DNA of 5,588 nt, from the NCBI GenBank assembly GCA_021816165.1, contig JAKAYZ010000204.1, positions 1 through 5,588 of the forward strand. The letters run 5' to 3'. Source of the DNA: Planctomycetota bacterium (GTDB taxonomy: Bacteria; Planctomycetota; Phycisphaerae; WQYP01). Below, piece after piece: positions 1,511-5,588 of the stretch (position 1 is its first letter; each line of letters begins with the position of its first letter). Both the position numbers and the translations under genes were made by a program. The notes beneath the pieces are model-generated. The model did not search any database, was not told where the DNA came from, and worked only from the letters and a program-made list of their open reading frames with translations.

Positions 1511-2959
1511 ATGGCGGAGCTTTGCCCACGGCACGAACGGCATAAAATTAAATCGACATGGTTATCTGCTTTGGCAGTGGCTGGAGTTGCAGCGGCGATT
1601 GCCCCATCGGGCGTGGCCAGCGCGTTGGATATTTCCGGCGTGCTGCCGGTGGCGGTTGACCAGCCGCAGATTAACGCCATCATCACCAACCCTGCCACTG
1701 GAAACGTATTAACGACCAGTGGCGGTTATTCGGTGATTCAGGCATATCTCGATACGGGCACCAGCAGCATTGTGCTAAGCCACAGCACCTGGACGGGATT
1801 GGGCATTACCCAAAGCAGCAGCAACGGCCAAAATGTTGTGTTCAATGATGTGGCGATCGGCGGTACCACGCCATTTTATGTCTCAACCCCCTATGATATT
1901 TCCACGGCACCATTCAGTGTGAACACCGACCAGACCATCGGCGGTACCCCACCACCCATCAGCGCTTTCGGCAACACCATCGGTCCGGCGCAAATGGAAC
2001 TTACTGAGCAGCCCAGCCCGCTTAGTTCGCTTACCGGTGCCACCGACATCATGGGGATGCCGGTCATGAATGGAAAAGTTACCGTGCTGGATCTAGGTCC
2101 GGCCAATAATTTTGCCAGCGTCAGCAATCCCGGGGAAACGGAATCTTACATCTACGCCCCGGGCACACCTTACAATCCGTCAGAAATTAATACTAATCCG
2201 GGTATTGTGCCAACCACTTATCAGGTCGGTCTGAGCTACGCATCTTTTCAGCAGTTCACCACCCAAACGCCTGCCGGGGCAGCAGGTCCTGTCTATGCCC
2301 CAAACCCGTTTATCGGGCCGAACCCCGTGGCGGCTTTTAATGGCCAAACCCAGACCAACGCCCCACCCGGCGTCACGATTGCATTTAATAACGCCACCGC
2401 CACCGGCAGTTTTTTGCTGGATACGGGTGCCCAGGCGTCGTTCATTTCGCAAGCGATGGCCAGCCAGGTCGGCGTTAAGTATGAGGCCGGCACCTACGGT
2501 ACGGCCAACCCGGTTTTGGTATATGCATCCACCGGTAAGGTGGTTCCCAATCAGTTCACTATACCGTTGGGGGGTGCGGGTGGCAGTTCGCTTACGGCGG
2601 CCGGCTTTTATTTGAGTTCGCTTTCGCTTCAGACCAAACAGGGAACGACCATCACGTTTACGAACGCACCGGTGGAAGTGGTGGATGTTACCGTTACAGA
2701 CCCGACAACGGGCAAGACGTTGACGCTTGCGGGCGACTTGGGGATGAATTTTTTTGAACCCAGCGGTACGGTGAATTTGAGCCAGGTGAATGGGGCGGCA
2801 TTTAATTGGATGACGATTGATCAGCCCAATTCTCAACTTGGGCTGATACTGGCGGGTCAATCGCCCGTGCCTGAACCGGCCAGTTGGCTTCTGCTGCTTG
2901 GTGCCGCGAGTGCCGCAGCGATAGCCGCTCGACCGCTGCGGCTGAAAACACAACGTTGA
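1511..2959 (+). CDS. Secreted bilobed aspartic-protease-like protein with PEP-CTERM sorting signal
   Basis: This 482-residue protein starts at an ATG with a well-placed GGAGG. Residues 1-38 form a signal peptide: a basic n-region (R7, R10, K12, K14), a hydrophobic core at 17-31, and VASA just before the predicted cleavage after A38. Two aspartic-peptidase active-site motifs follow. YLDTGTSS has Asp81, in the pepsin-like DTG-(S/T)-S form. FLLDTGAQAS has Asp304, in the retropepsin-like DTGA form. Each is followed about 100 residues later by a hydrophobic-hydrophobic-Gly element (DIMGM at 179-183, GDLGM at 408-412), so the protein looks like two homologous lobes forming one bilobed peptidase. 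The 223-residue spacing between the aspartates resembles the pepsin arrangement (about 183). The C-terminus is a PEP-CTERM signal: VPEP at 453-456, a hydrophobic stretch at 459-471, then basic RPLRLK. Exosortase should remove it during export or surface attachment. The middle is rich in Asn, Thr, Gly and Pro. No substrate can be read from the sequence, and activity is inferred from both DTG motifs being intact. Confidence 0.85.
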   Translation: MAELCPRHERHKIKSTWLSALAVAGVAAAIAPSGVASALDISGVLPVAVDQPQINAIITNPATGNVLTTSGGYSVIQAYLDTGTSSIVLSHSTWTGLGITQSSSNGQNVVFNDVAIGGTTPFYVSTPYDISTAPFSVNTDQTIGGTPPPISAFGNTIGPAQMELTEQPSPLSSLTGATDIMGMPVMNGKVTVLDLGPANNFASVSNPGETESYIYAPGTPYNPSEINTNPGIVPTTYQVGLSYASFQQFTTQTPAGAAGPVYAPNPFIGPNPVAAFNGQTQTNAPPGVTIAFNNATATGSFLLDTGAQASFISQAMASQVGVKYEAGTYGTANPVLVYASTGKVVPNQFTIPLGGAGGSSLTAAGFYLSSLSLQTKQGTTITFTNAPVEVVDVTVTDPTTGKTLTLAGDLGMNFFEPSGTVNLSQVNGAAFNWMTIDQPNSQLGLILAGQSPVPEPASWLLLLGAASAAAIAARPLRLKTQR

Positions 2960-3387: not shown

Positions 3388-3398
3388 GAAAGGACCGC
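3388..3398 (+). promoter_or_regulatory. Ribosome binding site for the glutamic peptidase-autotransporter gene
   Basis: GAAAGGA at 3388-3394 precedes two consecutive in-frame ATGs, at 3399 (4-base spacing) and 3402 (7-base spacing). The second has better spacing, but the protein differs by only one Met. An in-frame TGA at 3387-3389 excludes any earlier start. Confidence 0.6.
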
Positions 3399-5588
3399 AT
3401 GATGAATAATTGCACCACCGGGAAATTCCGTGCCGCGGACCGCGAGCAGCGGCCCACTCGAGCGGCGGTTCGTCGCCGCCGGGCATTGTCAATAATGCTG
3501 GGGATAGTTGCGATCCCCTTTGCGGCGGGTATAGGAGGCGTGGCGCAGGCCCAACCGCAATTGTCGACCAATTGGGCCGGTTACACCGCGACCACCTCGG
3601 GCGGGAACGGATTTACCTCGATATCAGGCGGCTGGACCGTGCCGGCTATCACCAGCGGATCATCGTCCGGTGGGAGCTATTCCTCCATTTGGGTTGGTAT
3701 CGATGGGATCGGTAATAATGCTCTGGAGCAGCTCGGTACCGAGGGTGACTATTATGGTGGTGCCGCCCACTACGACGCATGGTGGGAGATGATTCCCGCG
3801 CCGGAAACGCTTATTCCAAGCATGTCGGTGGCACCGGGTGATCGGATGTTCGCCAATGTCACATACATTGGCAGTGGCAAATTTGTTCTCAGTATTACGA
3901 ATCTCACCACGAACACCAGTTTTAGTACTACGCAGACCAACACCTCGGCACCGCGTTCCTCCGCCGAATGGATAGCAGAAGCCACGACCGTCAATGGGAC
4001 CATTGCCCCGGTGGCCGACTATGGCACGGTTAAATTTAATGATGCAACGGCTTCACTCAATGGCGGCAAACCCGAGCCAATCAGTTCACTTTCCGGTTAT
4101 TCGCAGATACAGTTGTCTCCTTCATCGAGTTCTGATTTCGGTGCGTACCCATTTCCGCTGACGAATAACGGACAAAATTTTACGGTAACCGTCTCGCCAC
4201 CGTCCGCGTCAACACTGGTTTGGTCGCCGACCGGTTCGGCCAGCGGCAGTGACAGTGCTGGAAACTGGGATACCACGACGACCAATTGGGTGGGTGCCAA
4301 CGGCGCGGCCGCGTGGAAGTCTGCAGACTGGGCAGCGTTTGGCGCTGGCACCAGTGCCCCAACGACGGTGACACTTCAAGCCCCCATCTCGGCTGCAGGA
4401 ATCGCCTTTAATGTTGGGGGGCCGATGACCGGAAATTATTACACGATCGCCGGCGCTTCCGCCAGTGATGTTCTCACGGTTACGGGTGGCGCAATTTTGG
4501 CCAACTCCAATGATGAGATATCCGCCCCCGTCGACTTTACCAATGGTTTGGTGCTGAGCGGGATCGGCACGCTGACCCTGAGCGGTAGTAACACCAACAC
4601 GGTGGGGACCACCATCAACCCCGGGGCGTCTTTGCTGGCCAATGCAGCGGCAGCGTTTGGTGCTGCCAGTGTGCAGAATTTCGGTACGCTGGGGATTGAC
4701 GGCAGCGTGGGATCGCTGACCATTCCCGCTGGCTACACCCAAGGCCAGACTGGTTCACTGGCAGTCCGAATAGATGGAAATCAGCCCGGGCAATTTGATC
4801 ACTACACTGTCAATGGCACGGCCAATTTGACCGGAAACGTGGCAATCACACTTCAGAATGGTTACGTGCCCACCAGCGGAACAACGCTAAATATCCTCAG
4901 CGCCAATACCGTCACCGGCAATTTTTCATCGATTACACTCGGTTTTCACCCCATCGACCTGTTCGCCAGCACAGCGGCCACGTCAACAAATGTCAATCTT
5001 CTTTTCACGATCCAAATGCCATCGCTACTTCCGTACGCTTTGACCGCCAATCAGGCAGCCGTGGCCGAGTACCTCGACAGCACAGACGGCTATAACCCGT
5101 CGTCGCATCCATCGCAGGCGTATCTGCAATTGATAAACAATATCGGTAGCCAATACTCGGCGCAGCTCCCCGCCACGCTGGATATGCTTTCGCCGATTGA
5201 CATGCAGGCGTTTCCGCAGGTGGCGGTGCAGAACGGCATTAATCTGGATCAGACCATCAGCGAACATCTATTAAATCTTGATAACGGGGCGCGTGGAATG
5301 GATGATTCGGGTTTTACGCTGCTCAATCCGGGCCAACAGGGCGGCGGCGCATTGGCGCTGGATCAAATGCTGCGTGACCAGTCGCAAATTGTTAATCTGG
5401 ATGCCGGGTTGCCATCATATCTCAGGTATTCTGGTGTCGGTCCGCGAGGGCATTCATCCACCACAACTCCGTGGAGCGCTTTCATTACCGGTGCAGCCGA
5501 ATTTGACAGCTACGCCGATACCAGCACCATTGGCAGTTCCAATATTACCACTGAAAACGCGACGATCGGCGGCGATTATGCACTGTTC
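3399..5588 (+). CDS. Autotransporter with an eqolisin (peptidase G1, glutamic peptidase) passenger; 3' end outside the window
   Basis: The frame is open for 730 codons to the window edge. Residues 1-51 form a long signal peptide: a polar extension, RRRR at 25-28, a hydrophobic core at 29-47, and cleavage after AQA (49-51). Residues from about 58 to 265 match family G1. They show NWAGY (58-62), GGWTVP (77-82), WVGIDG (98-103), EQLGTE with Gln111, YDAWWEMIP (125-133), a PGD motif, NLTTNTSFS, AEWIAEA with Glu190, and DYGTVKF (207-213). Gln111 and Glu190 are 79 apart, close to the catalytic Gln53/Glu136 pair of scytalidoglutamic peptidase. Next come VWSPTG and NWDTTTTNW (289-297), then an autotransporter-associated beta-strand repeat (about 384-410, with GTLTLSGSNT), which suggests a beta-helical stalk. 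Residues 545-625 resemble the pre-barrel region, with LTANQAAVAEYLD and LPATLDMLSPIDMQAF. From W692, alternating polar/hydrophobic strands ending GGDYALF look like the start of the outer-membrane beta-barrel. The peptidase should therefore be displayed on, or released from, the cell surface. Whether the passenger is cleaved cannot be seen. Confidence 0.88.
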   Translation, partial: MMNNCTTGKFRAADREQRPTRAAVRRRRALSIMLGIVAIPFAAGIGGVAQAQPQLSTNWAGYTATTSGGNGFTSISGGWTVPAITSGSSSGGSYSSIWVGIDGIGNNALEQLGTEGDYYGGAAHYDAWWEMIPAPETLIPSMSVAPGDRMFANVTYIGSGKFVLSITNLTTNTSFSTTQTNTSAPRSSAEWIAEATTVNGTIAPVADYGTVKFNDATASLNGGKPEPISSLSGYSQIQLSPSSSSDFGAYPFPLTNNGQNFTVTVSPPSASTLVWSPTGSASGSDSAGNWDTTTTNWVGANGAAAWKSADWAAFGAGTSAPTTVTLQAPISAAGIAFNVGGPMTGNYYTIAGASASDVLTVTGGAILANSNDEISAPVDFTNGLVLSGIGTLTLSGSNTNTVGTTINPGASLLANAAAAFGAASVQNFGTLGIDGSVGSLTIPAGYTQGQTGSLAVRIDGNQPGQFDHYTVNGTANLTGNVAITLQNGYVPTSGTTLNILSANTVTGNFSSITLGFHPIDLFASTAATSTNVNLLFTIQMPSLLPYALTANQAAVAEYLDSTDGYNPSSHPSQAYLQLINNIGSQYSAQLPATLDMLSPIDMQAFPQVAVQNGINLDQTISEHLLNLDNGARGMDDSGFTLLNPGQQGGGALALDQMLRDQSQIVNLDAGLPSYLRYSGVGPRGHSSTTTPWSAFITGAAEFDSYADTSTIGSSNITTENATIGGDYALF

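Follow-up and report, generated by a model that had tools for sequence, protein, structure and literature searches.

A G1 glutamic peptidase domain as the predicted passenger of a planctomycete autotransporter

The 5,588-nucleotide stretch of DNA analysed here (the window; contig JAKAYZ010000204.1 of assembly GCA_021816165.1, Planctomycetota bacterium) comes from a draft genome of 3.71 Mb and ends within a gene that joins a glutamic peptidase domain of the G1 (eqolisin) family to the stalk and β-barrel of an autotransporter. With a probability of about 0.86, the product of this gene is a classical (type Va) autotransporter with an active G1 endopeptidase as its N-terminal passenger. An interpretation made earlier from the DNA letters, here called the original prediction, had proposed a G1 peptidase as an autotransporter passenger, and our analysis supports that proposal. 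Both domains lie in one frame, the full gene has a complete barrel, the catalytic pair is conserved, the architecture recurs in other genomes and the predicted folds match those of both halves; catalysis and surface display would be the expected properties of such a protein.

A G1 domain, a stalk and a barrel in one frame

The frame that begins at position 3399 of the window had been read as uninterrupted, and it indeed runs open to the window end as an exact prefix of a 977-residue protein encoded on contig C123 of the same genome. The complete gene (L004:5394-8324) has 977 codons followed by a stop; the window covers codons 1-730, and 741 coding bases lie beyond it. Two ATG codons, at 3399 and 3402, follow a candidate ribosome-binding site whose spacing favours the second, which is also where the database protein P0003 begins. 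We rejected a chance or frame artefact, as both domains score more than 100 bits over their cut-offs and the whole frame is kept in orthologues. Window and contig C123 differ by one base, at position 357 (C in the window, G in C123), within a glycosyltransferase gene and outside the G1-autotransporter gene.

The Pfam G1/eqolisin model PF01828 (Pfam name Peptidase_A4) matches residues 57-225 with 133.8 bits against a cut-off of 22.3, and structure comparison of the predicted model places an eqolisin β-sandwich fold at residues 54-265, bearing out the G1-like domain originally placed at residues 58-265. Solved fungal G1 enzymes (PDB 2ifw, 1s2b and 1y43) share 24-28% identity with this domain. 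When a profile of nine family members was aligned with both solved fungal enzymes, the two residues singled out as catalytic candidates, Gln111 and Glu190, fell on the Gln/Glu pair that forms the catalytic dyad of the G1 family (PMC3009609), and the segments WVGIDG and YDAWWE aligned as well. Glutamine and glutamate are both kept in 121 of 121 selected G1 domains of more than 140 residues: 13 of 13 borne by autotransporters, 15 of 15 others from these genomes and 93 of 93 from outside, the outside set comprising P0012-P0019, every second entry in a list of 120 short proteins and, from the genome search, every third locus. The ratio of nonsynonymous to synonymous substitution rates (dN/dS) in the G1 domain is 0.107 and 0.055 (dS saturated in the latter), and the stalk start gives 0.327 for the near pair; for the G000/G003 barrels dS was undefined, which left the ratio without a value.

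At the other end of the protein, the autotransporter barrel model PF03797 matches residues 696-956 (166.7 bits against a cut-off of 26, E 1e-48) and TIGR01414 matches residues 690-977, reaching the last residue, Phe977. The predicted model shows a barrel of 12 long strands, mostly downstream of the window, in which only the strands predicted at residues 691-703 and 714-729 fall. Phenylalanine is the terminal residue of this protein and of the other eight in the nine-member alignment A2. Ahead of the barrel the model predicts helices at 549-560, 572-582, 586-595, 598-627 and 650-660 (P0003 numbering, one less), and the stalk is a β-helix by structure comparison. The pre-barrel region and first barrel strands read from the window, and the 12-strand barrel with a terminal Phe or Trp anticipated beyond it, are matched by the complete gene. 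Two outcomes named as able to refute the original prediction, a missing G1 match and a missing 12-strand barrel, therefore did not arise, and the alignments of sequence and fold imply that Gln111 and Glu190 would meet in an active site.

The likely signal peptide has a basic n-region, a hydrophobicity peak at residues 29-43 and A-Q-A at 49-51. An arginine run (RRRR) stands right before the hydrophobic core after a long basic lead, as it does in several relatives; this twin-arginine-like pattern could also suit the twin-arginine translocation (Tat) pathway. By the same heuristic, the G1 domain begins within about six residues of the likely signal peptide end. A missing propeptide was considered as a special trait but is not put forward: short spacers also occur in several stand-alone G1 proteins of the family, and results of the heuristic are uneven.

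Several observations weigh against the reading of the protein as an autotransporter with an active G1 passenger. The TIGR02601 and PATR (PF12951) repeat models, common in type Va passengers and not required there, are not among this protein's matches in listings to E 10 and E 1; in L029, a relative, both do match the stalk. The β-strand-repeat stalk of the original prediction therefore stands as a β-helix by fold and fails as a TIGR02601 match. Model confidence is low where the stalk begins and at residues ~631-690, and the predicted template modelling score (pTM) is 0.60, so the model predicts the domains and not their arrangement. Assignment of the signal peptide relies on a heuristic rather than a trained predictor. 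Lysine, not the aromatic residue typical of such barrels, is the last residue of L026 and L029, the two members that belong to another genus, and the barrel of L026 is absent from Pfam matches at E 0.01, a custom barrel profile matching residues 3292-3730 of its 3732-residue frame. Finally, the relatives are mostly metagenome-assembled.

Table 1. Positions in the window of the G1-autotransporter gene and its parts
Feature	Residues	Positions	Strand	Basis or remark
G1-autotransporter gene, first 730 of 977 codons	1-730	3399..5588	+	
Candidate ribosome-binding site AAGGA		3390..3394	+	Read from sequence
Likely signal peptide	1-51	3399..3551	+	Hydropathy and AxA heuristic
G1 (eqolisin) catalytic domain	52-268	3552..4202	+	
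Candidate catalytic glutamine	Gln111	3729..3731	+	Aligns with Gln of both solved G1 peptidases
Candidate catalytic glutamate	Glu190	3966..3968	+	Aligns with Glu of both solved G1 peptidases
β-Helix stalk	269-545	4203..5033	+	Includes GNWDTTTTNW
Pre-barrel helical linker	546-690	5034..5468	+	Predicted helices
First two barrel strands	691-730	5469..5588	+	Barrel ends at Phe977

Relatives and passenger exchange on a shared chassis

The original prediction had suggested looking for homologues of the same architecture, and the protein and genome searches combined yielded 12 distinct proteins with both a G1 domain and a barrel, plus one cut by a contig end. A protein search with G1 words, limited to proteins of ~537-1709 residues sharing exact words with the query and so liable to miss more distant pairings, returned 17 proteins, nine of which, the window protein included, carry both Pfam domains. 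Before copies were merged there were 27 frames, one of them (L008) a truncated fragment of the gene in G003 that lacks a real barrel score. Complete members span 971 to 3731 residues, and P0011 lacks its start. The longest, at L026:1859-13051 (-), has a very long stalk; it is known from the genome search because the protein search was bounded by length and exact words.

G1-autotransporters occur in five of 28 genomes of the family, three from one genus (G000, G001 and G003) and two from another (G010 and G017). Among 397 genomes sampled from the class, 15 carry a G1 protein of any kind, and 14 of those 15 belong to the same family (G016 by a fragment only); among 392 genomes sampled from the phylum one does, the source genome itself. 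Full-length orthologues in two other genomes are 71-73% identical over the whole length and have different neighbours, and further full-length proteins from other sources are present in databases. In a search of genome contigs, 145 stretches encode a relative, and two of the best 80 hold both domains. Plasmid searches gave 55 records for the whole protein, with matches beginning at residue 363 at the earliest (in the stalk or barrel) among the 40 listed, and five records for the G1 part, all from Streptomyces; a search of viral contigs gave 26 pattern matches, none of them confirmed as a relative.

Public relatives come from the Planctomycetota metagenome-assembled genome (MAG) YP3.bin66 and from a MAG filed as Phycisphaera mikurensis from 'SulCav', a name that suggests a sulfidic cave. 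Hosts of G1-autotransporters may live in acid habitats, in line with the presence of Alicyclobacillus and Sulfobacillus among other G1 carriers. P0004-P0011 belong to the same gene family and have both Pfam domains precomputed, and the database names of three of them each cover one half: P0008 is 'MAG: G1 family glutamic endopeptidase [Phycisphaerae bacterium]', P0004 (JGI) 'outer membrane autotransporter protein' and P0011 a beta-barrel porin domain protein.

Searching with the linker and barrel recovered 24 proteins, ten of which (P0020-P0029) are 46-76% identical over that part and lack PF01828 among their precomputed domains; at least P0024 is a shortened copy, as its counterpart in a genome, L044, has a longer frame. 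The N terminus of both P0026 and P0027 is a metalloprotease of the NF038122 family (E 1.4e-29 and 3.1e-30, above the curated cut-off). The shared stalk starts right after it, residue 268 of the window protein pairing with residue 315 of P0026 and 313 of P0027; these two proteins have the same stalk start and barrel as the window protein and a predicted metalloprotease as passenger instead of G1. The metalloprotease region is also encoded in genomes G004, G021 and G023, where it is 85-92% identical to that of P0026. An HE[VI]DE motif is kept in all five of P0026, P0027, L165, L166 and L167 (NF038122 was run on P0026 and P0027 only). The libraries used (for P0029, NCBIfam only) named no enzyme domain in the N-terminal half of P0020, P0022, P0023, P0025, P0028 or P0029.

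Comparison of P0011, which bears a G1 domain, with P0026, which bears the metalloprotease, gives 32-76% identity in blocks over P0011 residues 51-500 and 98-100% after that, the first block being unaligned. This jump in identity suggests recombination between paralogues, but a switch during assembly of a single 8 kb metagenome contig would leave the same pattern. In a tree of G1 domains (75 rows, the outside rows halved from 93 to 47), G1-autotransporters fall in two places and a single clade is not rejected (approximately unbiased test, p-AU 0.387). In the barrel tree, one common clade of the 12 G1-bearing barrels is rejected (p-AU 8e-8), in an analysis of 61 rows by a quick method that gave warnings of long branches meeting. 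Rows were dropped for the duplicate locus L037, for copies of included genes and for barrel matches of <330 or <300 model positions. L157 (G010:C25), labelled in the test as lacking G1, begins its frame at a contig end and probably represents the 3′ part of the truncated G1 gene on G010:C73. Two fusions or a replacement of the translocator could have produced the result of the barrel tree, and both fit.

We propose that G1 joined a pre-existing chassis of stalk and barrel, which in relatives carries other N-terminal passengers, including a predicted metalloprotease at the same junction. On this evidence we lean, by a little over even odds, towards a broader picture in which the family, probably acidophilic, mounts proteases of unrelated catalytic classes on one outer-membrane display chassis: stalk, linker and barrel would be homogenised between paralogues by recombination, the N-terminal enzyme (glutamic, predicted metalloprotease or other) would be swapped at a fixed junction, and G1 would have been inserted into at least two lineages of the chassis.

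Proposed function and its alternatives

Following the established logic of type Va secretion, from which the order of steps is taken, the signal peptide would carry the chain across the inner membrane and the C-terminal barrel would be inserted in the outer membrane, presumably by the single Omp85/BamA-type protein of the genome (one Omp85 match, E 4.1e-45, identifies the barrel-assembly machinery). The passenger would then cross, with the β-helix stalk folding outside and the G1 domain at its tip, where Gln111 and Glu190 would activate water to cut proteins at acid pH on the cell surface.

Whether the passenger remains on the cell is the point on which a variant compatible with this proposal survives best. 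Cleavage might free the passenger as a soluble exoenzyme, perhaps through the acid activity of the passenger itself; we regard this course as possible and clearly the less likely one. Precedents exist, since SPATEs are described as secreted, subtilisin-like autotransporters may be anchored or released (PMC9289746) and fungal G1 enzymes self-process at acid pH (PMC3009609); yet the nearest solved full-length folds in structure comparison are EstA and AaaA, the latter called surface-bound (PMC9289746), and this analogy argues mildly for a passenger that would stay attached.

A second variant, slightly more doubtful than release, concerns the substrate: the protease may act by trimming other surface proteins, among them the cell's sister autotransporters, and not by digesting food protein. 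The genome encodes four autotransporter barrels, this one and three more, and other proteins outside the cytoplasm are processed by subtilase autotransporters such as NalP and SphB1 (PMC9289746). Against trimming, no shared operon was seen, as the window's other genes of at least 150 residues have no relative beside the G1-autotransporter gene in G001 or G003, and the presence of two more G1 enzymes in the genome points to a general repertoire of acid proteases.

A G1 fold without proteolysis, serving as a binding or structural tip, appears improbable, given the dyad kept in all 13 autotransporter-borne domains of the selection, the G1 dN/dS of ~0.1 and the two segments aligned with solved enzymes. 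An assembly chimera of a G1 gene and an autotransporter gene may be dismissed: the genome is a draft and paralogue barrels are alike enough to confuse assemblers, a real caveat for P0011, but the full-length orthologues with different neighbours and the full-length proteins from elsewhere refute it for the window protein.

The two further G1 proteins (L005:4021-4938 and L006:4607-5611; 305 and 334 residues) have PEP-CTERM-like tails that score below the Pfam cut-off, and the genome encodes one exosortase, so the same enzyme class may reach the surface by two routes. Directly upstream of the G1-autotransporter gene, 1511-2959 (+) of the window encodes 482 residues with two D-T-G motifs ~220 residues apart, an aspartic-protease domain matched by PF13650 over two stretches (E 1e-11) and, at the C terminus, a PEP-CTERM motif; judged by these motifs, its product is possibly a two-lobed acid protease. 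A linked protease cluster including this aspartic-protease-like neighbour was rejected, since the neighbours are not conserved in G001 or G003, and we claim no operon.

Comparison with known systems

A 2022 review of autotransporters divides their proteases into serine enzymes of the chymotrypsin-like (S6) and the subtilisin-like (S8A) type and lists as further enzyme classes the aminopeptidase AaaA, an acid phosphatase, esterases and a sialidase (PMC9289746, as far as its available text goes). A term search of its main text, within that available portion, found no 'glutamic', 'aspartic', 'metallo' or 'cysteine protease', and 'Planctomycet' is absent from the available text of two autotransporter surveys (PMC9289746 and PMC3419190). 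Literature pairing autotransporter with G1 words, in a scope that left most subscription papers and all preprints outside, describes no G1 autotransporter. Both terms occur in PMC8869686, PMC3733634, PMC13129497 and PMC13306010 and, in the text available, none of these joins them; the 'glutamic endopeptidase' of PMC13129497 and PMC13306010 is the unrelated CPBP family. Both terms also occur in PMC5158083, PMC10744023 and PMC3091305, which to judge from their titles deal with a Cryptococcus peptidase, protease in rhinosinusitis (a review) and the genomes of dermatophytes.

Bacterial G1 enzymes and protease autotransporters are each already known, and what appears to be new is their fusion, for which public sequences exist and no description was found. 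The view of eqolisins as mainly fungal and of this pairing as uncommon accordingly needs adjusting: the fusion is undescribed in the literature searched, but bacterial G1 enzymes have been reported (PMC3009609). Likewise, the expectation that the protein extends protease autotransporters beyond the serine class agrees with the absence of a Gln/Glu class from the available text of the review, although a non-serine passenger, AaaA, is known (PMC9289746). If our reading is true, a glutamic passenger adds an acid-working catalytic class to autotransporters, in a phylum that neither survey mentions in its available text. Swapping between G1 and a metalloprotease on a common chassis would indicate how new display enzymes may arise, and the family may offer natural parts for displaying acid proteases on laboratory bacteria.

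Among G1 enzymes, scytalidoglutamic and aspergilloglutamic peptidases (MEROPS G1; the solved structures above) are fungal and arise from self-processed precursors (PMC3009609), whereas the G1 domain of the window protein is fused to a stalk and barrel. The first characterised bacterial glutamic peptidase, pepG1 of Alicyclobacillus, is like the window protein a bacterial G1 protein with a strictly conserved dyad; it works at pH 3-4 and is pepstatin-insensitive; at 28 kDa, pepG1 is too small for a stalk and barrel (PMC3009609). Among autotransporters, AaaA (an aminopeptidase) and EstA (an esterase) of Pseudomonas aeruginosa carry passengers unrelated to G1. Proteases of the SPATE/IgA protease type (MEROPS S6) and of the subtilase type (S8A; Ssp, NalP) are serine enzymes of chymotrypsin or subtilisin fold, whereas the window protein combines a candidate Gln/Glu pair with a predicted G1 fold.
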